DNA of 20,515 nt from a virus. The notes beneath the pieces were generated by a model, which was not told the DNA's origin, did not search any database, and saw only the letters and a list, made by a program, of their open reading frames with translations. The stretch's first letter is position 1, and each line of letters opens with the position of its first letter. Location of the stretch: positions 1 to 20,515 of the IMG/VR virus record IMGVR_UViG_3300032299_000719, one strand, 5' to 3'. Position numbers and translations under genes: made by a program. Below are positions 2,682-20,515 of this stretch, piece after piece.

Positions 2682-2910
2682 GGATAGTATCCAGTTTTGT
2701 TTCAATTCGAAGCATGTGCAGTTTGATCTCTGCCATCACTTCGCGGAAGTCTGCCTTAGTCAAGAAATCTTTATTGACCTCCAGCTCCAGAGCATGAAGC
2801 CGAAGTTCAACTGCAGCAATTCTCTGGTTAGTTCCCCTATGAAGGTTCCAATTCCAACCACTAATGGCAACTGTTACGGCTGAAATAAGACCCAAGAGTG
2901 GTTCAAACAT
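2662..2910 (-). CDS. Membrane-anchored coiled-coil protein, holin/spanin-like candidate
   Basis: This 82-residue protein has one N-terminal hydrophobic segment (about residues 4-20, PLLGLISAVTVAISGW). A long heptad-patterned helix follows (about 28-78: RIAAVELRLHALELEV, then KADFREVMAEIKLHMLRIET). One membrane span plus a coiled coil is the layout of XhlA-type haemolysin or holin accessory proteins and of small cyanophage proteins of similar length. The ATG at 2910 overlaps the end of the C39-like peptidase gene by 8 bases, so the two are probably translated together. That supports a lysis function in which the membrane protein helps the enzyme reach the wall. A virion membrane protein remains possible. 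Confidence 0.75.
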   Translation of the reverse strand: MFEPLLGLISAVTVAISGWNWNLHRGTNQRIAAVELRLHALELEVNKDFLTKADFREVMAEIKLHMLRIETKLDTIHEDRNK

Positions 2911-3460
2911 CAGTTGCGTTGCGAAAGGTCATAAACCACCCAGAGCCAGGCCCTTCGACCATCCAACGACGCCCAAAATTCTTGAGGCTGTAATGCACAC
3001 CCCTGCCACCCCTGCCGACAGTAACGTAATCGCCGTTAACCATATCCATTTCCCCGTAAGGATCGTGAAATACCCCATGAGTGGATGTGTAGCCAATCAT
3101 TAGCATCCAATGCCCACCACCACGTGGTTTAGTGACGGAGCCCTTGTGAAGGACCCCAACAGCTACAGGGAAGCCGCCGTCGATCTCTCGAAAGAGATCA
3201 GTGAAATTCCCGCTCTGGCGGTAGGTGGCCGCGATGCCGTATTCATTGCAAGCCTTAAGTTGAGAACAAGTAATGGTGGTGTCCCCGTATTTCAGAACTG
3301 TTCTCAAATAATCATCGTCTGCGTTGCTCCCCATCAGGGCATCAGGCTTGAGAAACTTGACGGCCATGGCACAGGTAGAGCTAAAACACATCCGCCGTGA
3401 ATGGCCAGTCTTTGAGTCAGTCTGCAAATAATACTGATTTACTGGGAGAAGATTGCTCAT
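2903..3460 (-). CDS. C39-like cysteine peptidase, candidate endolysin
   Basis: This 185-residue papain-fold protein resembles the peptidase C39-like family. The likely catalytic Cys is C25 in RRMCFSSTCAM, the His is H117 in GGGHWMLMIGY, and the Asp is D133 in VFHDPYGE, all spaced as in C39-like enzymes. No signal peptide or transporter domain is present, so it is not a bacteriocin exporter peptidase. The start ATG at 3460 has AGGTGAG about 6 bases upstream, overlapping the stop of the preceding gene. Flanking genes encode small membrane proteins, and no T7-type amidase (gp3.5) or lysozyme is seen nearby. The best inference is an endolysin that cuts peptidoglycan cross-links. Processing of a phage protein is an alternative. 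Confidence 0.8.
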   Translation of the reverse strand: MSNLLPVNQYYLQTDSKTGHSRRMCFSSTCAMAVKFLKPDALMGSNADDDYLRTVLKYGDTTITCSQLKACNEYGIAATYRQSGNFTDLFREIDGGFPVAVGVLHKGSVTKPRGGGHWMLMIGYTSTHGVFHDPYGEMDMVNGDYVTVGRGGRGVHYSLKNFGRRWMVEGPGSGWFMTFRNATDV

Positions 3461-5597: not shown

Positions 5598-8500
5598 TTA
5601 TTTGTTTTGGTAGTTAAGGATTCGTTGAATAGCAGCGTCTGGTCTGCCTTCCTGCTGTTGTATTTCTACCGCTGTGCGCTCTACAGCAGCCCTACGGAGG
5701 TTTGGATACTCCTGGTGGAGCTGGGCCTCTGCACGCTTCTGGGCCTGGGTAAATAGGGTATCAATGGCTTGATAAAACTTACTGGCTTTGACATCAAGCC
5801 CGTACTGTTTATCAGCATCCCTACTTTTAATTCCCATGTCTCTCATCTTGGCGTAGGATTCCATCTCAGCTTTGATGGCTGGTTTAGCAAACAACTTTTC
5901 CAACTGTCCTTCTAGGTTTTGTTGACCAATAAGGAACTGCATTTTGGAGCGCTGCTCTGGGGTAAGTTTATTCCCGTTGCTATCAGTTTTGAACTTTCTA
6001 ACTACTTCATACCCACTTTCCCTAAGGGTTTGGCGAGTTGGAGTATCAGTGCCAGTAAATCTAAGAGGGGAGACAGAGTTGATAAGTCTTTGGATGGGAG
6101 GAGTCCAGCCAACCAAGCTACCATCAAGAATGTCATACTTCTCAGGAAGTTCACCTTTGAAGTATGGGTTTGCGTTCTGGATCCGCTGGAAGGTTGATTG
6201 GAGATCATAATCTAACTCACGCATCCCAGGATTCATGATATTTGATAACTCACGACGGGCGCCAGCATAGGGAATAAAGGAGTTCATTTGATTGGCAAAA
6301 GTGCTGCCAATCTTATCCAGGCTTCCACTAGAGACAGCATCAATGATACCCCCAAGATCAACTATCCCTTGCAGGAAACTTTTGTTTGTGATGTTTTGAG
6401 CTATCATCCAGCTGACTTTCTGGAACATCTGTTCAGTACCAGGCTCTTTGAGGCTATTGGAGTTATCTCCAATATCAGCAACTGTAGACAGGAAACTATT
6501 AAAGGGTTCGAGGGCTGTATATTCAACCCAGGTATCTCCCACCTTAAATGATCTCGGCTTCCAGCCAGTCTGCATCCAAACGTCCCGTTCTGCTCGATCT
6601 ATAGGACCATTGCCAGTAAGCTTTCCAGATAAGTAAAGGCTAATTGCACTACCTACAGCCACATACCCAGCAGCTATTCTACCTTTCATCAGCATCTGAG
6701 CTTCAAGGAGTTGGCCAGGGTCGTTGATGCCATACACCCTTACCTTGTCCAAATTGTCAGACGTTGCAGCCATGACATCACGGTACTCATCAGAAAAGGT
6801 TGCCAGGATTGGAGTGTGCTTTTTAACAAGCTCAAGAGCGTTGACACCTGTCTTCATAAATAGAAAGAAAGGTTTGACGGCAGGGATGTTAAAAGCAGGC
6901 TCCAGACGCTTCATGTACTCTGGGAGAGGAAGACGCAGTGATGCTTCCTCTGACATCCTTTTAGCGTAATCGCTTAGAGTCTGTGGATTTTGATTGGCTA
7001 GAAACTCATCGGTGTACTTAGAAACCAACTCCTTCATATCTTTACCACCCGTCTCATCCCAGGCTTTGCTAAAAGCTCTCACCTTGGCATCGACTCTTGA
7101 CATAATTACACTGGTACCGTCATCCAGCCCTTGCATAAATACGTTGGGATACTTTGCTCCTATCCAGGAATTGAAATTGAATAGTGCATCAGTGATGCGG
7201 TACCAGACTTTAGGAGCCGTATCAGGGCCAGCATTAATGATTCTCCCAAGATCAGTCCACTCTTGTCTCGAAGCATAACGACCAACCGCTTCAGTAACCC
7301 TACTACCAGTGACATTCATCTCACCGTTTATGTTGGTGATGATAGTATTTCTGGCCGCTCTCCAAGCTTCTGTGGTTGCTGACATTGCAGCTTCCATACT
7401 GGATAGACCTAAGGCAAAGCCTTTTGGATCACCAGAAACAAGACCACCTAGGGCAGTCATAACAGGTCGGGTGTAAGTCATAAGGCTACCCCCAAGAGTT
7501 GCCCTAGCAAGGGTCCGTGGCCCGCTTAGAATGCCATTAATAGATACAGCCTGCCATTGCCTGATAAGTTCATTTGATTCCTCTGCTGGAACTGCCCCAT
7601 CAAAGAAGTCTTTAAAACCTGGCATGGAGAAGCGCTTCTTAAGCACTTCATACATTTCGTTGAGAGATTTTGGAGAGCCGTTTGCAAGCACAGCGGCATC
7701 AAGGAACCCTCTGGCCAACTCTGGGTTGGTGTCGAAGATCATGCGAAGATCCTTCATAGAAGAATCAACCTGCATGTCAATTTGCTGTAGACGGGCAGGC
7801 ATTGCTCCGGAATCCGCTTTCAGCCCTTGCAGGTCAAAGCCACTGATGTATTTGGCTCTTGCTGTTTCAGCCAGCATGAACTTCATTCGGTTAACTAAGG
7901 CGTCAACCGACCGGCTATTATCCATGGAACCATCGAGGGTCCTAGCCACCGTGGCAAGATCAGAGATCTCTCCAGCGGTTGTGTGGATCAGCATTTCGAC
8001 GGCCCTGTGATCGACCAAACCAAGGAACCGCTCCTGGGTGCCAGTAAGCGCATTAGTGCGATCTCTGGGGTCCACTGCGCCCTCAGTAAGCATCTTCTTA
8101 AGTCCCTCCAGATCGTCAGGGTTATCCACAACCTCATCAAGGAGATCGAGATACCTAGCAGTGGAGAGATTCCTAAGCTGCTTTGCTTCGGCAAACGGTG
8201 TTTCATTCAATTCAACATCAATCCCCTTAGCCACCTCTTGGATGATCTTGCGGCGATCTGGATCAAATTGAGCTAGACGCTTTTCAAGGGCTGCTTCGGT
8301 GTAAACCGCCACCCTCCGGCCATTGGCTTGGGTGGGGTCCATAGCCATGATATAAGCATCACGGAGATTTTTGTAATATGCCTTCCCTGTTCCTGGGGTA
8401 AACAGCGCTTTGTCTGGGCGGTCGAAGAGGGGGGAATTGACCCAAGCGTTGGGCTCTAGTCCCTCAGGATCATCAGCCAGGACGTTCTTTACCTTTTCAT

Positions 8501-9593
8501 CAAAGTTAGCCTGGCGGGAATCCGCGTCTTTGGCAATCCTGGCTTCTCCCTTGGATTTGGGATTTAATTCAAGGTCCAGCTCTGTGTACTGTTTCTTAAT
8601 GGCCTTGGTTAGTTGCTCGGCTCCTGAGTAGTCAGGGTCTGATGCCCGAAGGACAGCCTTTTCCTCAGCAGTCAGTGTTTGACCACCCTTAAAAGATGCT
8701 TCCTTTTCAGTTAAGACCTTTTGAGCTTTCTTGTAATCCTTTTCCAGCTGTTGATACTGCTGAAGTTTGGGCTCTGGTGGCAGCTTTGCTCCTTTGGCGG
8801 CTACGCTGGCGCGTCTCCAGCCCAAGGCAAGCTCTCCAGCCAATCCAAGACCAACACCTTCCAATACATTTTTAGCCCTCCGCTCTAGTGGAGTATCGTC
8901 ATCCTCAATAGCCAGTGGCGTCGGCAACCACGGCATCAACTCCTTCAAGTTATTTGAAAGAGTTTCACCTTCGCTGTAGCTGCTCATGAAGTCCACAGCA
9001 GCGCCCTCTAGGACGCCCTTTGTAGCCATCCTGACAAGCTTGCCACCCCTAGAGGCAGCCTTATCAGTATTCAGGGCTTGAGACAGTGCAGTGGCTCCTG
9101 GGACCCTCATAGCCTTTGCCCCTCTTGCAGCCCGTCTTGTAAGGACAGCTAGGGTCCCGTATTCAGCGATTCCGCGGAGCAACCCACCCCAAACGGTCCT
9201 GGTAAGCGGCTCCTTCTCATCAGCCACCTGAAGCCAGGTTGGCTTGAAGTGGGGGTCTGCGATTTGACCGGTCAGGAGCTTTTCAGTGGTTCCACCAACT
9301 GATTCAGCAGCATCAATGACACCACCAACAACAGCGCCGCCAGCCTCTGCCAGGTTTTCCATAACCCCCATAGGCTTGGACCCAGCGGCTTTCTCAGTCT
9401 GCTGGAGTTGACCCTCCTGCGCTGCAGCGTCTTGGGTCTCCAATTCGGCTCTTTGAGCCTCCTGCTGGGCCCTTAGCTGATCATCTGCTGAGACAGCTTC
9501 TGATGTAGCCAGGGCCTCCTGTGTTGCGGCTTCGCGCCGCGCTTCCCCGGCACCGGTCGGAACCATGCCCCTAGGGATGTATGAGCTTGTCAT
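5598..9593 (-). CDS. Internal virion (ejection) protein, gp16 position
   Basis: The product has 1331 residues, nearly the length of T7 gp16 (1318), and lies in the gp16 slot directly before the tail fibre. The N-terminus (about 1-80) is a Gln/Glu/Ala-rich coiled coil. Further in are Gly/Ala-rich segments (GGAVVGGVIDAAE; GVGLGLAGELALGW) and hydrophobic helices at about 960-990 (GRIAAGYVAVGSAISLYLSG). The segment GWKPRSFKVGDTWVEYTALE recurs in large podovirus ejection proteins. The C-terminus is again helical and Gln-rich. I see no lysozyme signature at the N-terminus, where T7 gp16 has its transglycosylase; that activity sits in the neighbouring protein. It is expected to enter the host envelope and help form the DNA channel. 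Its ATG shares one base with the preceding stop. Confidence 0.87.
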   Translation of the reverse strand: MTSSYIPRGMVPTGAGEARREAATQEALATSEAVSADDQLRAQQEAQRAELETQDAAAQEGQLQQTEKAAGSKPMGVMENLAEAGGAVVGGVIDAAESVGGTTEKLLTGQIADPHFKPTWLQVADEKEPLTRTVWGGLLRGIAEYGTLAVLTRRAARGAKAMRVPGATALSQALNTDKAASRGGKLVRMATKGVLEGAAVDFMSSYSEGETLSNNLKELMPWLPTPLAIEDDDTPLERRAKNVLEGVGLGLAGELALGWRRASVAAKGAKLPPEPKLQQYQQLEKDYKKAQKVLTEKEASFKGGQTLTAEEKAVLRASDPDYSGAEQLTKAIKKQYTELDLELNPKSKGEARIAKDADSRQANFDEKVKNVLADDPEGLEPNAWVNSPLFDRPDKALFTPGTGKAYYKNLRDAYIMAMDPTQANGRRVAVYTEAALEKRLAQFDPDRRKIIQEVAKGIDVELNETPFAEAKQLRNLSTARYLDLLDEVVDNPDDLEGLKKMLTEGAVDPRDRTNALTGTQERFLGLVDHRAVEMLIHTTAGEISDLATVARTLDGSMDNSRSVDALVNRMKFMLAETARAKYISGFDLQGLKADSGAMPARLQQIDMQVDSSMKDLRMIFDTNPELARGFLDAAVLANGSPKSLNEMYEVLKKRFSMPGFKDFFDGAVPAEESNELIRQWQAVSINGILSGPRTLARATLGGSLMTYTRPVMTALGGLVSGDPKGFALGLSSMEAAMSATTEAWRAARNTIITNINGEMNVTGSRVTEAVGRYASRQEWTDLGRIINAGPDTAPKVWYRITDALFNFNSWIGAKYPNVFMQGLDDGTSVIMSRVDAKVRAFSKAWDETGGKDMKELVSKYTDEFLANQNPQTLSDYAKRMSEEASLRLPLPEYMKRLEPAFNIPAVKPFFLFMKTGVNALELVKKHTPILATFSDEYRDVMAATSDNLDKVRVYGINDPGQLLEAQMLMKGRIAAGYVAVGSAISLYLSGKLTGNGPIDRAERDVWMQTGWKPRSFKVGDTWVEYTALEPFNSFLSTVADIGDNSNSLKEPGTEQMFQKVSWMIAQNITNKSFLQGIVDLGGIIDAVSSGSLDKIGSTFANQMNSFIPYAGARRELSNIMNPGMRELDYDLQSTFQRIQNANPYFKGELPEKYDILDGSLVGWTPPIQRLINSVSPLRFTGTDTPTRQTLRESGYEVVRKFKTDSNGNKLTPEQRSKMQFLIGQQNLEGQLEKLFAKPAIKAEMESYAKMRDMGIKSRDADKQYGLDVKASKFYQAIDTLFTQAQKRAEAQLHQEYPNLRRAAVERTAVEIQQQEGRPDAAIQRILNYQNK

Positions 9594-12500
9594 TAGATAT
9601 CGGCGTAGATTTGGTTAGCCATGGATCGCGGATCGACAGGTTTGTCGTTAAGCCTGCGTTCAAGATGGAGGTGTGGCCCCGAAGAAGAACCAGTATCTCC
9701 AGTCAGGGCAAAGACTTTTCTGGGGCTAATCTCCTGGCCGACCTTGACCTTTATGCTGTTGAGGTGAGCAAATCGAGCAATAGCACCATCGGGCATCCTG
9801 ATGTCCACGAACTTGCCGTAACCCCGCGGGTCATTGCCAATATAATCGACTGTCCCTGGGACCTTGAGGCTAAGCTTGCTGTTGCTCTCAGTGGCATAGT
9901 CCACACCTTTGTGATCTGTCGAAGCACCTGGTACCGGCTCCCCCCTGGGTCCCATCAGGCTAGTAATCCTGACCTGCGACAGCTGTCGTCTGGCCGAAGC
10001 GGACATCAAGCGATCATCACGGTAGGGATTGCTAGAGCCATCCTGGCTTGCTCCTTGGCTGAGCCAGTCGGCGGCAAGAGGGCGATGCTCCTTCTGCATC
10101 CTGGCAACATGTGTAGCTACAGGACCATTAGAATCGGACAAGAAGTTCCTGCCAGTTGCTCTGGCCTGTGCCGTATAGGCTGGGGCCTGAACCGCCTGAT
10201 ACAGAACATGGAGGCCATCGCCTTGGCGAACCCCTGAAGCCCTCATGTAATTCACCACGGCTTGGGCCTGCTCCATTGGAGACATGCCTGGCCGGACCCC
10301 ATACTTCCTTTGATTATCAGGAGAAAACTGAATCCAGCCGAGATACTGCCCACCATCACCGCCCCACCTATCAAGCCCGCGCCGATAAGCACCGCTTACA
10401 AGGTTTCCACCAGTCTCATAGTTAATAAAGGTGGCCATATCAACAGGATCAACACCTAATTGCTTTGCCATGAAGGCGATCGCCTGTCGATCCTGACCTG
10501 GTCCTACCTGCCCGGCACCAATAACCGCCCTAGAGGATCTAGCGCCAGTCGGTACTCGGTTAATAAGCTCCCTCAATCGGGGATCTCCAGAGGATTCTAT
10601 CTCTTGTGTTGCGAAATCACGCTCTCTAGGAGTCATACCGTGTAAAGCCCTTTGGGCGTTGATGATGTCGTAGGGTGACATTGACTTGCCTTTGGGTAGT
10701 GAGTTGGCAATCAAAGTCGCAATGAGGGGAATAGGTGCCTTTAGGTCGGAAGTCTGCTCTAGGATATGCTTTGGTATCAGCTTTTCTGTATTGATTGCTG
10801 ATACTCCACCAGACCTAACTCGGCTTACTGTGTATTGAACATCCTTAGCAGCAATATTGTACTGACCTGCCTGATTTGCTTTTGAGGAAAAGAGCCCAAA
10901 CTCCCCATCGTTAAACGAATAAGGACCAAACTGCTTTCTTCCAGTCAATTCCTCACGATCTGTTTCAATCTGAGCCACTACATCACGGCCAGCCTGGGCA
11001 TAGGCATCCTCTGCAGTCTTACCGGCGTTCATGTAGTTCGTGGCCAACTTGTCCAACTGCCGCAGGGCGTGAGCTTCTGCGAAGTAGAACGATGCGGGCC
11101 TTACATTCGTAGTGCCTGTGATCTTGGCGTTAGCCAGTAGGGCGGCGCTGATGGCTGGTTTGGATATATCTCTCAAGCCCTTGCTAATTGATTCAGCCTT
11201 CCTGGTACCTTCTTCAGCTATCTTACGTAGATTGGCATCAAACCGAACTTTAAGGGGGTATTTCCCACTGTCAAGCTCCTCAATTGTAAGCTCTCCTGCC
11301 TGTGCCAGGGCTTCCACATTGGCTCTTGACTCTTCGAGAGTCCGGGCCTGCAGGGTTAAGTTCTGTTGGTATTGGATGATCCGTTGATCTACTTTGCCAT
11401 CAAACTTTTGCCTAGATGCTTCAATTACTTCACCCACCTGAGCATCATCGGCACCACCTTCGATGGAGTTTAAGACGTTCATTGTCTCGTCAGACCAGTT
11501 CTCGAAGGCCTGGTCTCCCATCTTGTCTTGGAGATCCTCGTCAGAGGCTTTTTGGGTGTTGATCTTGCGTCGGGCTTCAGCGAATTCAGCGCTCCTTAAA
11601 TCACCGTAGGTCTTGCCAGGTTGGTAAGATTCAGCAGATTCCAAGGCATCCAAGGCCTCCATATTCCCATTCTTGACGAGATGCTCTAGGGTCATCTGGA
11701 AGGCCCTCAGAGGGCGAATGACACCCTTATCATCCCGAAGGTGGGTAAGCTGCCTCATCGTCTCCTTAAGGCTGCCTACGGGGTCACCACCAGCTTCTAG
11801 TGCAGCATCAAGTTGGAAGAAAGTTTCAGAAGTCCTTTCATCATCGCGGGCTTTATCAAAGAGTTCACGCTCCCGGTTAAGGATGGCATCCTCAGCCTCT
11901 CGCATCTTCTGTAGTGCTGGACCCAGAAACTTGGGATTCATTCCCAGTAAGCCCTGATCCTTGATGAACTTCCTAAATAAAACAGAATTGACGGCTGCCA
12001 GTTCGTCTGGACCTTGGGCGGTCATTGGGGTGATGATCTTGACTTCACCAGTGGCGGGTGACTTGTACTGGATTTCAGTCTTGTCTTGTTCGTAGGCTTG
12101 TTGCAATGTGCGGGGCCATTGAGCCACAGCCATGTTGCTGCGTGCTAAGGCCCTTCCAAGCTCATAGCCTTTCGACAGTTTCCTAACTGCCTCGACCGAT
12201 TCTGGCTGTGCTCCAGCATCCCGAAGATCGTCAGCGGTTCGCTGCATGATTTCGTCTTGCTGACGGAGTTGGGTCACACCTTGCTCCACAAGAGCAGCGT
12301 CTTGCGGTTGCTGCCCAAGGAGGTACTGGTCAGCAAACCCCTGCTCCATGTCGGCCTGCTCTTGGGCCTGCTTTCGCTCGGTAATCTGCTTATAAATAGT
12401 CGCAGAGAACTTGCTGAGGGACTCCAAAAGCGGCATAACACCATCATTTGGTTGATTCCTGATCACCCCTTCAGCGTTTGCAATCCTGGTCCTAAGGTTC

Positions 12501-12766
12501 TGCTCTGTGGCTCTCTGGGCGGCTGCCTTGGCAGACTCACTTAGCTCAAAGTTGCGCCCGCGATTAGCCGCTTCCAGGCGTTGTGCAGCCTCTTGGCCAG
12601 CCTGGAAAGCGTTGCGGTTGTTTTGCTCGATGTTTTGATTCTCACGGAGCTGTCGTGACAGCCCCGCCCCTTGCTGGAGAATAGAATCAATCTTGCCTGT
12701 GCTTAGTTGTACGGGATTAAACCCTCTTTCGCGAGCTTGCCCACGAAATTCAATCTGCTCGGCCAT
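9593..12766 (-). CDS. Internal virion protein, gp15 position, with transglycosylase and M23 peptidase domains
   Basis: This 1057-residue protein is longer than T7 gp15 (747). The N-terminal part (FRGQARERGFNPVQLSTGKI, then long Gln/Ala/Glu-rich helices to about 700) matches gp15-type ejection proteins of marine podoviruses. At about residues 765-905 is a lysozyme-fold, transglycosylase-like domain with probable catalytic Glu784 in INYETGGNLVSGAYRRG and a downstream GQYLGWIQFSPDNQRKYG. At about 920-1050 is an M23 (LytM-type) metallopeptidase with the zinc motif HxxxD at 952-956 (DHKGVDYA), a His at about 1001 (FAHLN) and HxH at 1032-1034 (GPHLHLE). Such a protein could cut both glycan strands and peptide cross-links when DNA is injected. 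It starts at ATG 12766, with no ribosome site, 9 bases after the gp14-like stop. Confidence 0.9.
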   Translation of the reverse strand: MAEQIEFRGQARERGFNPVQLSTGKIDSILQQGAGLSRQLRENQNIEQNNRNAFQAGQEAAQRLEAANRGRNFELSESAKAAAQRATEQNLRTRIANAEGVIRNQPNDGVMPLLESLSKFSATIYKQITERKQAQEQADMEQGFADQYLLGQQPQDAALVEQGVTQLRQQDEIMQRTADDLRDAGAQPESVEAVRKLSKGYELGRALARSNMAVAQWPRTLQQAYEQDKTEIQYKSPATGEVKIITPMTAQGPDELAAVNSVLFRKFIKDQGLLGMNPKFLGPALQKMREAEDAILNRERELFDKARDDERTSETFFQLDAALEAGGDPVGSLKETMRQLTHLRDDKGVIRPLRAFQMTLEHLVKNGNMEALDALESAESYQPGKTYGDLRSAEFAEARRKINTQKASDEDLQDKMGDQAFENWSDETMNVLNSIEGGADDAQVGEVIEASRQKFDGKVDQRIIQYQQNLTLQARTLEESRANVEALAQAGELTIEELDSGKYPLKVRFDANLRKIAEEGTRKAESISKGLRDISKPAISAALLANAKITGTTNVRPASFYFAEAHALRQLDKLATNYMNAGKTAEDAYAQAGRDVVAQIETDREELTGRKQFGPYSFNDGEFGLFSSKANQAGQYNIAAKDVQYTVSRVRSGGVSAINTEKLIPKHILEQTSDLKAPIPLIATLIANSLPKGKSMSPYDIINAQRALHGMTPRERDFATQEIESSGDPRLRELINRVPTGARSSRAVIGAGQVGPGQDRQAIAFMAKQLGVDPVDMATFINYETGGNLVSGAYRRGLDRWGGDGGQYLGWIQFSPDNQRKYGVRPGMSPMEQAQAVVNYMRASGVRQGDGLHVLYQAVQAPAYTAQARATGRNFLSDSNGPVATHVARMQKEHRPLAADWLSQGASQDGSSNPYRDDRLMSASARRQLSQVRITSLMGPRGEPVPGASTDHKGVDYATESNSKLSLKVPGTVDYIGNDPRGYGKFVDIRMPDGAIARFAHLNSIKVKVGQEISPRKVFALTGDTGSSSGPHLHLERRLNDKPVDPRSMANQIYADI

Positions 12767-12775
12767 TTTAGATAG

Positions 12776-13642
12776 TTAGAATCTGCCACCAAAGGCAGCG
12801 AATGTTGACAATCCTGCGTTGAGGAAGTTATTAGCGATACTTAAGCCAGATGGTGTTCTGACAGTGTTAGTGCCTTTCATCGGCGCAGGGCCCCTTTCAG
12901 GCTTTAATGGATCCAACAGCGTTGCTCTTGGCATCGACAACGGAGCCATCGGTGTGGGGGCTAGAAGGGGGGAAAGCATCCGACGTGCATCAGCAGCGAA
13001 GTCAGCCTGGTACTGGTCGTTGTAGACTTGCTTTTCGTTAGCAAGGCTTTCCCGTTCAGCACTTAGAAGGTTTGCTGCCATGATTGCCTGATTCCGCCCG
13101 TAGCTGGCCATTACACCGCCTGTGAGGCGTCCTGCTGATACACCCTGACCTGCTCTGGCTTCTACAGCCCCAGCCTCTTGGAGTCCTTTTACAAGCATGT
13201 CCTGGTGTTGGAAAGACATTCCTTTGATCAGTTCGTTGTAACGCCTACTTTCAGCATTTAAGGCATCCTGCGACGCGATGGCATTGAGCCGCCGCTGATC
13301 ACCATAAACCTTCTCTGATTGGTTATAGGCCCGGACCTGATTCGCATACTCGAAGTTTCTGATGGCCAGGGTGTAGCCATAATCCCTGGCAGCTGTGTCT
13401 TCCAGATAGCGGAGGTTGTTCTCCTGATTCTGCCTGGCTACTTTTGTTTCCTTTTTAGCAAACTTATATTGGCGCTCTGTCTGCTTCCAGTTAAAGTTAT
13501 CTACCGACGTATCGTATTTGTATTGGGCCTCAATCCTCTTTTGTTCTGCGGCCCTCGCCTTGCGTGCTTCTGAAGCTTGCGCACCGGAAGAGAGAAGGCC
13601 ACCAGCGATACCGGCAACACCGGCAATAAGACCTGCGACCAT
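12776..13642 (-). CDS. Internal virion protein, gp14 position
   Basis: The product has 288 residues (T7 gp14 has 196). It begins with a hydrophobic Gly/Ala segment (residues 1-18, MVAGLIAGVAGIAGGLLS), followed by a long charged and Gln/Asn-rich helical region at about 20-225 containing many Arg, Lys, Gln and Tyr. It ends in a Pro-rich section and GLSTFAAFGGRF. This layout and the position between tail tubular B and the two giant ejection proteins match gp14 of T7-like phages, which enters the outer membrane during infection. It has the best ribosome site in the window, AGGAGG 9 bases before ATG 13642, suggesting high translation. The preceding stop is 3 bases away. Confidence 0.88.
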   Translation of the reverse strand: MVAGLIAGVAGIAGGLLSSGAQASEARKARAAEQKRIEAQYKYDTSVDNFNWKQTERQYKFAKKETKVARQNQENNLRYLEDTAARDYGYTLAIRNFEYANQVRAYNQSEKVYGDQRRLNAIASQDALNAESRRYNELIKGMSFQHQDMLVKGLQEAGAVEARAGQGVSAGRLTGGVMASYGRNQAIMAANLLSAERESLANEKQVYNDQYQADFAADARRMLSPLLAPTPMAPLSMPRATLLDPLKPERGPAPMKGTNTVRTPSGLSIANNFLNAGLSTFAAFGGRF

Positions 13643-13645
13643 TTG

Positions 13646-16216
13646 TCAGACCCTCCTGTAGAAGCGCGGGGCGTAGTTGCCCTCCCAAGATGAAGACAGT
13701 AGTGTCATTGGGAAGGTAGTTGGGGAATCAATCCGTACACTGAAGTTATCATTTTTCTGGTGTATTGGTAAGGTATAAACAGCACTGTCAGTCATGGGGA
13801 CAGTGTTGGCAATATAATAGTCAGCCGATGGGACTGCTTGTACTTTTGTGAAATTTGCACGGCCTCTAGCTCTTAAAAAGAATTGCATAGGGCCTGTTAC
13901 CCCAAACACAAACCGTTGCCTTGCAATGGTTAGAGATGCTGTGTAATCAGCAGCCTCTTCCTTCCTTTGGAAGTATGTACGCGGTAACTCAATACCGCAG
14001 GTATATACATATCCATACAGAACGGTTCCATTAGTTGTTGTTAAATCAATATCAGGAACTGTTAAGTAGTATCGGCCATTGAAAGCACCTCCAGTCTGTA
14101 GGTCGATTGCTACAGCCTCTTTCTGGATGCCAGCATCTACTTCATTTCCAACAGGATTAGATGTCAAGACAACGTTGGAAAGCCCGTAGGCTGCGGATGA
14201 TAGTGTACTTGGGGTTGGTGGCCTGTACTTGGTAGGCAGGTAAACCTTTGTTAGGTCATTCACCGAATCATAGACTAAGTCTGCAGAAGGTATTTTGATC
14301 CAGTAGTCCACTCTAGGCTCAGCCCGGAGCACCTTACCAGTAAAGCTCAAACCAGTAGGGACAAAGGTGTAGTTAACATCAGAGTCCGAAGCGCTTTGTT
14401 GGTTGAGGTTTAGTTTACAGAGACAGTAAGCATCAGGTCCAGTTGTGCGATCTCCATCTGTAATCACCCAAAGCGTCTCCTGATCCAGATGAAGCATCAT
14501 GACTGGTTCTGGGAATTCCCATCGAGTCCATGCCTGAGACCTTAAGTTTCCTTCTTGCCAAAACCGCAACACGTACACCACATAAGACCCAGCAATCCCT
14601 GAAGCCCCTCCAGTACCAGTTGTGCCCATAACTACTGAGCCTGCTTGTGGGCTTCCCGTAATCGTATTGATCGAACTAGGGATCCACTCAGGAACAATCT
14701 TAGTTAATTCCAAGATCTCTGGCTGTTCGTTCTGGCCCCTGCTGAGGAATTCGAAGAACCTACTGTATGCACCAGAAATTGAAAGGAAACCAACAGTGGT
14801 TCCAAGGTCAACCGGGGCAACGTCTGGGTTAAGTTGATAGTTTGCAATAGACTTGATGTTTGAGTTGCTGGGCGTGAATATGCCGCCTTCAGCCTCCATC
14901 AAAAACTGCTGATTATCACCAAATATAATCAAACCCTGTGGGGTTGGGTGGATGGCACTCAGCCGCACCGTCGTTAGACTACTAACCGACCTGTCGATCG
15001 GATCAGTATCAACTGGAGCGATGGCGGAGTTAGCGTAGAGGTTGTAAAAATCATTCGTCTGGGACATTACCACTGTCTCTTCCGTCAGGAAGCCAAGCCT
15101 GTTGCTAAAGAAGAACATGCTCTTGACGGTTGACCCAACGATACTGGGGTGGGGATTGGTTTGATTATCTCCAACCAACCGATCTACCCAGGTTACTTGG
15201 TTAAAAGTAAACTGGTCAGTGATAGAGTCGTACGTTAAAACGTGCGGCATAGTGTTGAGGGTCAAGCCTGGGCTAACATCAGGAGCTACCCATTCCGTCC
15301 AGTACCCATCGCCACTACCAATCCCTGAAGAGTTAGCAATGAACTTTACATAGTAGTCATCTTCACCAGAGTCTGAGTTGATGACCTTGACTAATCTGCC
15401 ATCAGCAGCCTTGCTTGGTAGTTTAGAAATGTCAGAAATAGTATCCTGAAAGACATAGAGACCAACACCACTTAAGGCACCAGATGCCGTACAGGTAAAG
15501 TCAAGAACACCAGTGTTCCGGACAATCTGCATCGTATTGCCTATGATAGTTCCGGTATAACCAGCAGGAAGTAAGGCCTGAAGCCCCACTAGGATCTGCC
15601 TGGCGGTCACTGTTCGTTCAGTCTGCCCTGGGGTAGTAATCGCTGCTTCGGCATTGAAGGTGGTATAGGTGATAGTGGTTGTTGAGCCAGACAACCTGAA
15701 ATCCAAAGTGTATTGGGCCCCGTAATGCACCTCAGTAATAACTACTGTAGCGACCCTATTGGCATTAAAGCTTGGAGCAGTACGGGCAGTTACTGCTGTG
15801 TTTTTGTTTGCAATGAAGGTGAACTCATTAACTGTAAGGACAGAGACGCCAGTAAGATCACTAATGGTGCTGAGATACCCAGTACCAGCCGGAGTGTTGA
15901 CCGTACGCTCTACACCATTCTCACCAAACACACGAATTACATTGGTTCCTACGCACCCAAAGAAGTTAGCACCTGGTCCCAAAAAGATAGGGAACCACTT
16001 TGCAGACCTTAGGATATTGCTTGGAGATACAGCAGAGGTGTTAGTAGTATTTCGAAGGTCACTAATAAACTCTAGTCCAGTCCTTTTGGCCAGGCCTAAA
16101 GCAGGATCAGCATACGCATTAAGGGCTTCTAGTACCTGGCCAGGAAGCATCAACTCCTCGGCCTGCTGTGAGACACCACCTAGGTAGTTTGGAATCTTTT
16201 GTGTGACTGTAGCCAT
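13646..16216 (-). CDS. Tail tubular protein B (gp12-like)
   Basis: This 856-residue tail nozzle protein compares with 794 residues for T7 gp12. The N-terminus carries the family signature: ATVTQKIPNYLGGVSQQAEE, then an AYADPALGLAKRTGLEFI segment, matching the (S/T)Qxxxx..GGxSQQ ... GLxKR pattern of gp12 proteins. The remainder is beta-rich with motifs such as SNRLGFLTEETVVMSQTNDF and a C-terminal ending in APRFYRRV. It forms the distal tail nozzle below tail tubular A, to which fibres attach. It follows tail tubular A by 21 bases holding GC-rich palindromes, with no Shine-Dalgarno sequence, and is followed after 3 bases by the gp14-like gene. Confidence 0.95.
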   Translation of the reverse strand: MATVTQKIPNYLGGVSQQAEELMLPGQVLEALNAYADPALGLAKRTGLEFISDLRNTTNTSAVSPSNILRSAKWFPIFLGPGANFFGCVGTNVIRVFGENGVERTVNTPAGTGYLSTISDLTGVSVLTVNEFTFIANKNTAVTARTAPSFNANRVATVVITEVHYGAQYTLDFRLSGSTTTITYTTFNAEAAITTPGQTERTVTARQILVGLQALLPAGYTGTIIGNTMQIVRNTGVLDFTCTASGALSGVGLYVFQDTISDISKLPSKAADGRLVKVINSDSGEDDYYVKFIANSSGIGSGDGYWTEWVAPDVSPGLTLNTMPHVLTYDSITDQFTFNQVTWVDRLVGDNQTNPHPSIVGSTVKSMFFFSNRLGFLTEETVVMSQTNDFYNLYANSAIAPVDTDPIDRSVSSLTTVRLSAIHPTPQGLIIFGDNQQFLMEAEGGIFTPSNSNIKSIANYQLNPDVAPVDLGTTVGFLSISGAYSRFFEFLSRGQNEQPEILELTKIVPEWIPSSINTITGSPQAGSVVMGTTGTGGASGIAGSYVVYVLRFWQEGNLRSQAWTRWEFPEPVMMLHLDQETLWVITDGDRTTGPDAYCLCKLNLNQQSASDSDVNYTFVPTGLSFTGKVLRAEPRVDYWIKIPSADLVYDSVNDLTKVYLPTKYRPPTPSTLSSAAYGLSNVVLTSNPVGNEVDAGIQKEAVAIDLQTGGAFNGRYYLTVPDIDLTTTNGTVLYGYVYTCGIELPRTYFQRKEEAADYTASLTIARQRFVFGVTGPMQFFLRARGRANFTKVQAVPSADYYIANTVPMTDSAVYTLPIHQKNDNFSVRIDSPTTFPMTLLSSSWEGNYAPRFYRRV

Positions 16217-19072: not shown

Positions 19073-20515
19073 TTAAAACCAAACTGTGGATGGTAGCCAT
19101 GTTGGGAAAGTATCAGGATCCGAATATTCAGGAATAGTGGCGAACTTAGACCGCAACTGTCCTGAAACTGTCTGGGGAACATCTGTCCGCTGGGCTGGAG
19201 TTGTAATAGCCTCTACAGCAGCAGCACCTAGACGTATGCGGAGTTGAGTCAGATAGAGCGAGCGAGGGTAAACCTCTGCCCCTAAAGCCTCCATGTAGGA
19301 AGCCTCTGATGGGTGCCCTGGGTCCTGTTCAGTTGCAGGAGTCTGGTAGAGGGGCACCCCCGCCGTTTTTTGTCGGCTGTTGGATTTAAGACCTACTGCC
19401 CAATTTGGGCCACGGCCAAATCGACCACTACTTAGGAAGTAGTCTGGCTCCCAATTCCGTGTGTTGTTTTGAACTACCAGATTCCACATGGTGCAAGCAA
19501 TAGCACGTTGGCCCTGCCCAGCTTTTGGAGCGGCAGCAGTGCCCTCCTTAGCACGGGCTCGATTCAACTTAAACCCACTATCACCACAAACATTATCAAA
19601 AAGGACGGCTTGAGAGAGTTGCTGGTGAGGCTCGCTAGCGATATGCCCCTTATCCCAAGCATTATCAAGAAAGACAACGTTTGTAGCAGCAGCACCATTT
19701 ACGATGAAAGGGTGTCTTCCATATCTACCGTAGCTTCTTTGCACTAATATTCTGCTGCCATTCATGTTGTACTGGTATTTTTGGAAACCCGCATGGAAAT
19801 GCAGGGTATCTCTAGCAACAGAATCAATAAGGGCAGTATCTTCTATTGTTACACTTTGGGAATCCTTTGACCCAACTGTTACAAGTGATAGGCCGTAATG
19901 AAAACCAAGGACTCTTCTAACCCAACAATTCTTTACGTCTCTTAAGGAGATCCCTTCCCAAGCGTGGTCAGTATCAATCGGATAATTTCCAGGATTAGCC
20001 GTATCTCTTTTTGTTTTATCATAAGTCGAATACAAAATGAGATCTTCTATGCCGATCCTTTGCCGCCTCCTTTCAGTTGTGACTCTGAGAATCTCTGCCG
20101 TATGCTCTTTTGCACCAATGTTAAGTAGGTTAGCTGTGGAGCCTTCTATTTGAACAACTCTCGTAGAAGTGTTAATCGAAGTGATTTTCCTTTCTAGTCG
20201 TGCGGTTGTATCAAGCAGCAAGCTAGTCTTTGTAGCATTCAACCACCCATTTGCCAACTGCATTGCATCAATGCCAACTGGTGTAGTGGAGGTTTGGATG
20301 ATATACTCTTCATTTGGTTTAAGTGAGGTAACACTGTCAACCGTAAACGATCTTGATCCTGAAGGAACAACTGGTTGAGTAATTGAGGCAAGGCGGGCTG
20401 AAAAGACTGGAGGTGCACCAACAACTGAAAAGCTGGGAACTTGAGCTGTTCCCCTGTGAATAATGATCGTCCCACTCTTGTGCGCTCCTGCACCTCTAAC
20501 GACCACACCATCAGC
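19073..20515 (-). CDS. Right-handed beta-helix, polysaccharide lyase-like protein (N-terminus outside window)
   Basis: The open frame runs to the window edge (480 visible residues, entering as ADGVVVRGAGAHKSGTIII), so the real start is beyond 20515; a GTG at 20506 is internal. The DGVVVRGAGA entry, typical of pectate-lyase-fold proteins, is followed by beta-helix rungs (GISLRDVKNCWVRRVLGFHY; DSQSVTIEDTALIDSVARDT; ILVQRSYGRYGRHPFIVNGA; TNVVFLDNAWDKGHIASEPH). The order WxGISLxxVKNCWVR, GRHxFxV, NVxFLDN, EPHQQLSQAVLFDNV and GQGQRAIACTMWN resembles secreted bacterial beta-helix proteins annotated as pectate-lyase-like. No signal peptide can be judged. The protein may be a virion depolymerase that cleaves capsule or slime. 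Its place before the capsid gene is unusual. Catalysis is unproven. Confidence 0.85.
   Translation of the reverse strand, partial: ADGVVVRGAGAHKSGTIIIHRGTAQVPSFSVVGAPPVFSARLASITQPVVPSGSRSFTVDSVTSLKPNEEYIIQTSTTPVGIDAMQLANGWLNATKTSLLLDTTARLERKITSINTSTRVVQIEGSTANLLNIGAKEHTAEILRVTTERRRQRIGIEDLILYSTYDKTKRDTANPGNYPIDTDHAWEGISLRDVKNCWVRRVLGFHYGLSLVTVGSKDSQSVTIEDTALIDSVARDTLHFHAGFQKYQYNMNGSRILVQRSYGRYGRHPFIVNGAAATNVVFLDNAWDKGHIASEPHQQLSQAVLFDNVCGDSGFKLNRARAKEGTAAAPKAGQGQRAIACTMWNLVVQNNTRNWEPDYFLSSGRFGRGPNWAVGLKSNSRQKTAGVPLYQTPATEQDPGHPSEASYMEALGAEVYPRSLYLTQLRIRLGAAAVEAITTPAQRTDVPQTVSGQLRSKFATIPEYSDPDTFPTWLPSTVWF

Follow-up and report, generated by a model that had tools for sequence, protein, structure and literature searches.

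Gene content of the window

We analysed a single viral metagenomic contig of 20.5 kb, IMGVR_UViG_3300032299_000719, which carries the structural module of a T7-like podovirus; the whole of this stretch is referred to below as the window. Its minus-strand genes run in the order capsid, tube, nozzle, gp14, slot 15, gp16, fibre, lysis candidate and terminase, with the slot-15 gene placed between gp14 and gp16, as is T7 gp15. The terminase shares 67–69% identity with the terminases of podoviruses that infect Synechococcus and Prochlorococcus, and the nozzle 36–37% with the nozzles of S-SRP01, LC07 and S-CBP3. Given these identities to cyanopodoviruses, the virus very probably infects a picocyanobacterium. 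The features that concern us are as follows.

13646..16216, minus strand: gp12 nozzle (tail tubular protein B); Pfam Phage_nozzle, E=3.5e-154; anchor of the comparative survey
12776..13642, minus strand: gp14-slot internal virion protein, 288 aa; phrog_20153, phrog_15746
9593..12766, minus strand: slot-15 ejection (internal virion) protein, 1057 aa, with two predicted C-terminal peptidoglycan-cutting domains
10546..12766, minus strand: N-terminal backbone of the slot-15 protein, residues 1–740; phrog_24152, E=9.8e-59, and hhalign to cyanopodovirus slot-15 proteins
10046..10510, minus strand: predicted lysozyme-superfamily (lytic-transglycosylase-like) domain, residues 753–907 (about); AlphaFold2 and VIA-align
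10415..10417, minus strand: codon of Glu784, the predicted catalytic residue, computed from the residue number
9629..9916, minus strand: M23 (LytM-type) metallopeptidase domain, residues 951–1046; Pfam, LytM fold
5598..9593, minus strand: gp16-slot internal virion protein, 1331 aa, with no peptidoglycan hydrolase domain detected
2903..3460, minus strand: lysis candidate, 185 aa, C39-like cysteine peptidase; phrog_10051 endolysin, E=1.3e-62

The lysis candidate aligns to the C-terminal part of the phrog_10051 endolysins, the N-terminal part of the family being missing, and is likely, from these matches, to be the lysis enzyme of the virus. Just upstream of the capsid gene lies a 477-aa ORF (19073–20506, minus strand), at the position occupied by hli and psbA in S-CBP1, S-CBP3 and S-CBP4. 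Its product gave no PHROG match, a weak match to DUF4955 (E=0.0023) and only two distant phage matches; repeated short motifs seen by eye suggest a beta-helix.

The slot-15 protein and its backbone

The ORF proposed at 9593–12766 exists, with an ATG start and 1057 codons for amino acids, and lies on the minus strand (12766 to 9593), a point absent from the original prediction. Its stop codon and the gp16 start share one base (TAATG). The backbone is homologous to the slot-15 proteins of Syn5 (gp44), S-CBP4, S-B28, P-SSP2 and KBS-P-1A (hhalign E<=2e-14). The description of the N-terminus as gp15-type thus stands as far as gene order and homology to cyanopodovirus slot-15 proteins are concerned, but does not extend to sequence similarity with T7 gp15: the cyanopodovirus backbone profile gave no hhalign match to the single T7 gp15 sequence. 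Neither was similarity found by hhalign to phiKMV gp36 or to the slot-15 proteins of Lo5R7ANS and Pasto, and a search of the backbone profile against PDB sequences returned no ejection protein, only weak unrelated matches. Full-length slot-15 and gp16 queries found no relatives among the viral contigs; the nozzle profile did find them. Syn5 gp44 is annotated as an internal virion protein and, by analogy with this annotation and with the pre-ejectosome structure 9k2v described below, the slot-15 protein of the window would be located in the virion core and ejected.

Two predicted C-terminal peptidoglycan-cutting domains

The motifs predicted for the C-terminal part lie exactly where they had been placed: YETGG at 783–787 (with Glu784), YLGWIQFSP at 808–816, H952-x3-D956 and H1032-x-H1034. 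The second domain is the more readily identified. Pfam PF01551 matches residues 951–1046 with E=3.7e-19 and 69.1 bits, against a gathering cut-off of 28.7, and the zinc ligands (His952, Asp956, His1034) and catalytic histidines (His1001, His1032) are all present in the canonical order. An AlphaFold2 model of residues 750–1057, made from an alignment of 15 natural sequences, superimposes on LytM (2b13) with Z=15.3 and an rmsd of 2.6 over 122 residues. Since Pfam, predicted fold and every zinc and catalytic residue agree, the identity of the M23 domain is certain, and endopeptidase activity is predicted from it.

The first domain is recognisable mainly by its predicted fold. No match to Pfam SLT, Lysozyme_like or Phage_lysozyme2 was obtained for residues ∼753–907 when the whole protein was searched at E<=1, and the only PHROG match is to phrog_4928, of ‘unknown function’ (E=4.4e-6 for the domain alone). 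The mean pLDDT of the model is 73.8, with the lysozyme-like domain mostly at 77–87 apart from a loop near 51–54; this weakly predicted loop, residues 45–56 of the modelled piece, follows the helix that bears Glu784. The best fold match of the modelled domain is a phage lytic transglycosidase (9udh; Z=11.7, 133 residues, 16% identity), with weaker matches to MltF, Slt and phiKZ gp144 (Z=7.5–7.7). In the model, Glu784 ends the second helix (residues 25–35), and the catalytic Glu of the lysozyme superfamily usually sits at a helix end. The same Glu is kept in homologous glycosidases of rhizobial, Microcystis and Ruegeria phages at 28–35% identity. Structure prediction thus bears out the lysozyme fold proposed around Glu784, and the domain is probably a lytic transglycosylase using this residue.

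Conservation points the same way for both sites. Glu784, His952, Asp956, His1001, His1032 and His1034 are invariant in 17 of 17 proteins (the window and 16 viral contigs) which are only 51–56% identical to the window across residues 750–1057, so that the invariance of the active sites is well beyond chance. A scan of genome contigs gave matches to the M23 part alone (query residues 162–305, approximately), which look like generic bacterial M23s. The central claim, that the slot-15 protein carries two peptidoglycan-cutting domains, is therefore upheld by the Pfam M23 match, the predicted lysozyme-superfamily fold and the invariant active sites.

The gp16-position protein and the gp15/gp16 border

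It had also been claimed that the gp16-position protein (5598–9593) lacks a cutter signature. This proved correct: the protein has no Pfam match and matches phrog_6651 ‘internal virion protein’ over its full length, while the positive control, T7 gp16, is matched by Pfam SLT with E=1.3e-30. The gp16 proteins of S-SRP01, Syn5, S-B28, S-CBP4, P-SSP2, KBS-P-1A and S-CBP1 likewise show no Pfam hydrolase (7/7).

The original prediction went further, proposing that the wall-piercing function had moved from gp16 to its neighbour. A counterpart does occur at the gp16 N-terminus: in the rhizobial T7-like phages Lo5R7ANS and Pasto, a glycosidase of the YETGG family starts within a few residues of the gp16 N-terminus, where T7 has its SLT, and no such glycosidase was detected in their slot-15 proteins. 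Because the slot-15 C-terminus and the gp16 N-terminus adjoin in the DNA, a shift of the gene border could relocate the domain, in either direction, without moving any DNA; transfer of the glycosidase from elsewhere is equally possible. The location of a wall-cutter on gp15 homologues has already been published (PMC8954989, PMC11440229).

Distribution among relatives

Relatives were surveyed as loci anchored on the nozzle profile in viral contigs, a set comprising the best-scoring nozzle relatives and hence biased towards close kin. The order nozzle, gp14, slot 15, gp16, fibre is kept in most of these loci. Two of the 41 slot-15 proteins extracted (L037, L076) leave the contig within the head, and 39 were counted. 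A glycan cutter and a peptidase-like domain stand at the end of 33 of the 39: 32 were assigned with home-made HMMs, which were built from the surveyed sequences themselves and so provide a classification rather than independent proof, and L051 by motif. No clear pair was seen in the other six (L030, L054, L062, L077, L083 and L084). Pfam searches on representatives agree with the assignments, returning GH73, SLT/SLT_3, canonical M23, Phage_lysozyme2 and Hydrolase_2. The combinations are listed here.

YETGG glycosidase and M23: the window and 16 other viral contigs (L097–L112)
GH73 and M23: S-SRP01, L013, L019
GH73 and apparently permuted M23: S-CBP1, LC07 and many others
KES-type and apparently permuted M23: L006, L010, L016, L022, L074
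SLT and M15-like: S-CBP3, L007, L009, L058, L060
SLT and degenerate M23: S-CBP4
Single cutter, Hydrolase_2: S-B28 (Pfam match below the gathering threshold), KBS-P-1A
Single cutter, tail-lysozyme type: Syn5 (Pfam match below the gathering threshold), S-CBP2

No cutter was found in slot 15 of P-SSP2. S-B28 (L086) has, besides its slot-15 Hydrolase_2-type domain, a separate gene between psbA and capsid (8359–9027), annotated as a lytic murein transglycosylase D precursor.

The pair is therefore no novelty of the window: 16 other contigs carry the same one, similar pairs are common, and complete isolate genomes carry analogous slot-15 fusions. Close relatives as a rule have two cutters on slot 15, and the window is a variant of a known arrangement. 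We found no account of M23 or dual domains in ejection proteins in open-access text, which does not prove that none exists.

Apparently permuted and degenerate peptidases

In many relatives an HxH-like strand (STGPHLDV; AAHLHV in L010 and L016) lies roughly 50–80 residues before the HxxxD-like segment, which reads SHGIDY or HKAWDF, and an FLHG histidine stands a few residues from the end of the protein. The arrangement is seen at these loci.

L016: 13753–14112, plus strand
L034: 6763–7149
L010, L003 (S-CBP1) and about 20 other loci

When compared with canonical M23 by hhalign, these C-termini align in a non-colinear manner, the first half of M23 matching the C-terminus (E=4.6e-8) and the HxH strand the front (E=0.004). 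HMMs of the two halves agree in position, that of the second half being weak (single scores of E about 0.02–1, Z=1). From the consistent placement and the first-half match, the M23 of many relatives is apparently circularly permuted. A fold search with the L016 head found no M23, but structural aligners are likely to be blind to permutation, and hence we do not take this as counter-evidence. Our literature search brought up no description of a permuted M23.

In S-CBP3 (L004, 7998–10970), L007, L009, L058 and L060, the SLT is followed by M15-like motifs (SYHYxGQAFDV) with NYHEH in front. In this M15-like type, where SLHYxxxAxD comes behind NYHEH, a second order swap is possible, suspected by eye; L051 has the two motifs in the opposite order. 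The S-CBP4 protein (L088, 14754–17855) combines an intact SLT with an M23 whose zinc ligands are gone, GQPGVD replacing HxxxD and the HxH being absent.

Apparent exchange of the two halves

A tree of the backbone, made by a quick method and containing long branches, groups the window with L097–L105 and then with the S-SRP01 type (100% SH-aLRT), in which the M23 is kept and the glycosidase is a GH73. L107–L111 carry the domain pair of the window on a distant backbone: L108 and L111 are 27–28% identical to the window in the backbone, 60–63% in the glycosidase and 39% in the M23, the values for L108 being 27, 63 and 39%. Between L097 and L108, the corresponding identities are 29, 65 and 74%. By its M23 the window is nearer to S-SRP01 (54% identity) than to L097 (42%), whereas its backbone is closer to L097 (41%, against about 31% for S-SRP01), and the glycosidase also sides with L097. 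As the pairwise identities conflict between the halves, the glycosidase and the M23 seem to have different histories, and to have been exchanged independently on one backbone. L032 (4413–7751), which falls inside the GH73 group, looks like a case of glycosidase replacement: only the ends of the GH73 remain, its core is missing, and an SLT follows, and then an apparently permuted M23.

Comparison with known systems

Among the nearest known parallels is the S-SRP01 slot-15 protein (QPD06462.1), where a glycosidase precedes a canonical M23 in the same slot; its glycosidase, unlike that of the window, is a GH73 glucosaminidase (Pfam E=7.8e-22; M23 E=3.3e-9) and not the YETGG lysozyme-like type, and the protein is annotated as a ‘hypothetical protein’. 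The cyanophage A4 pre-ejectosome (PDB 9k2v) also contains a slot-15 ejection protein with an M23. By length and M23 position, the M23-bearing chain corresponds to ORF28 (slot 15) of Anabaena phage A-4L, which differs from the window protein in that the M23 is internal (664–755 of 1058), there is no Pfam glycosidase, and the phage belongs to the Saffermanviridae. Lysozyme-like wall-cutters on slot 15 have been published for phiKMV gp36, the Pectobacterium phage PhiM1 OEP and the K1E homologue (PMC11440229, PMC8954989); each has one such domain and no M23, and the gp16-like protein of PhiM1 bears a second cutter-like domain.

T7 gp16 shares with the window a virion-borne glycan cutter for entry, its N-terminal SLT, but there the cutter is on gp16, has a single activity and belongs to a different Pfam family. 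In the gp16 proteins of Mesorhizobium phage Lo5R7ANS and Rhizobium phage Pasto the glycosidase is homologous to that of the window (28% identity, Glu invariant) but has no M23 beside it. Finally, phi29 gp13 (PDB 3csq) is a virion protein with a glycosidase followed by an M23, and VIA-align spans both domains; it is, however, a stand-alone tail-tip protein of a Bacillus phage, whereas the pair in the window is fused to a 740-residue ejection backbone.

Discussion

We consider the best explanation of the locus, with a probability of roughly 0.78, to be that a T7-like podovirus of picocyanobacteria here encodes its slot-15 ejection protein, and that this protein has a C-terminal head of two cutters for passage through the wall. 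In the head the lysozyme-superfamily domain, which probably acts as a lytic transglycosylase through Glu784, would come first and the zinc M23 endopeptidase second. The protein would sit in the inner core of the virion and at infection be ejected into the periplasm, where several copies would locally cut glycan strands and peptide cross-links, the M23 attacking the cross-links directly, and let the trans-envelope DNA tunnel pass the wall. This task would equal that of the gp16 N-terminal domain in T7. In this virus group the head itself would form a module that can be replaced at the border of the gp15 and gp16 genes, with its halves exchanged separately.

The gain of a second bond specificity, as originally proposed, fits the two domain types and their predicted activities. 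The further suggestion that the pair is an adaptation to a thick cyanobacterial wall is set aside as unsupported. Synechococcus CB0101 is the recorded host of S-CBP1, S-CBP3 and S-CBP4, yet these carry three different combinations (GH73 with apparently permuted M23, SLT with M15-like, and SLT with degenerate M23, respectively), and other cyanobacterial podoviruses have one cutter or none in this slot. Host wall chemistry does not dictate the enzymes.

It is conceivable, though unlikely, that only one of the domains cuts and the other mainly binds peptidoglycan and positions the active one, the role of degenerate M23/LytM domains in EnvC-type activators. The degenerate M23 beside an intact SLT in the same slot of S-CBP4 would fit such a division of labour, and Syn5, S-CBP2 and S-B28 manage with a single cutter, but both sites in the window are complete, and their residues are invariant in 17 proteins. 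A role in lysis late in infection rather than in entry is considerably less probable. Endolysins do occur among the PHROG and Foldseek neighbours of the domains; however, the gene lies in the ejection-protein block and is fused to an ejection-protein backbone, there is a separate lysis candidate at 2903–3460, and the A4 protein of the same slot is present in the pre-ejectosome. A single 20.5-kb metagenomic contig might owe such an ORF to misassembly or to the chance joining of unrelated frames, but this is refuted by the 16 independent contigs with the same continuous architecture and by the isolate genomes with analogous fusions.

Returning to the two-cutter ejection protein, what seems to be new is the independent exchange of the halves, the occurrence of the same glycosidase at the rhizobial gp16 N-terminus and the apparently permuted M23 in many relatives. 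We suggest tentatively, at somewhat less than even odds, that in cyanopodoviruses a combinatorial head of two cutters docks at the gp15/gp16 border, its halves being exchanged independently: one glycan cutter, of several unrelated types, together with a canonical M23, an apparently permuted M23 or an M15-like domain. Since phages of one strain carry different combinations, the requirement would then be to cut both bonds, and not for any particular enzyme.

The published idea that wall-cutters hop between podovirus ejection proteins is extended here to two complementary cutters on slot 15, a pair that most of one virus group carries, each half apparently having been replaced separately. This is of interest mainly for phage structural biologists and enzymologists. 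It also leads to a testable question, whether breaching the cyanobacterial wall needs both bonds to be cut, for which a single laboratory Synechococcus strain would allow the natural pairs to be compared.
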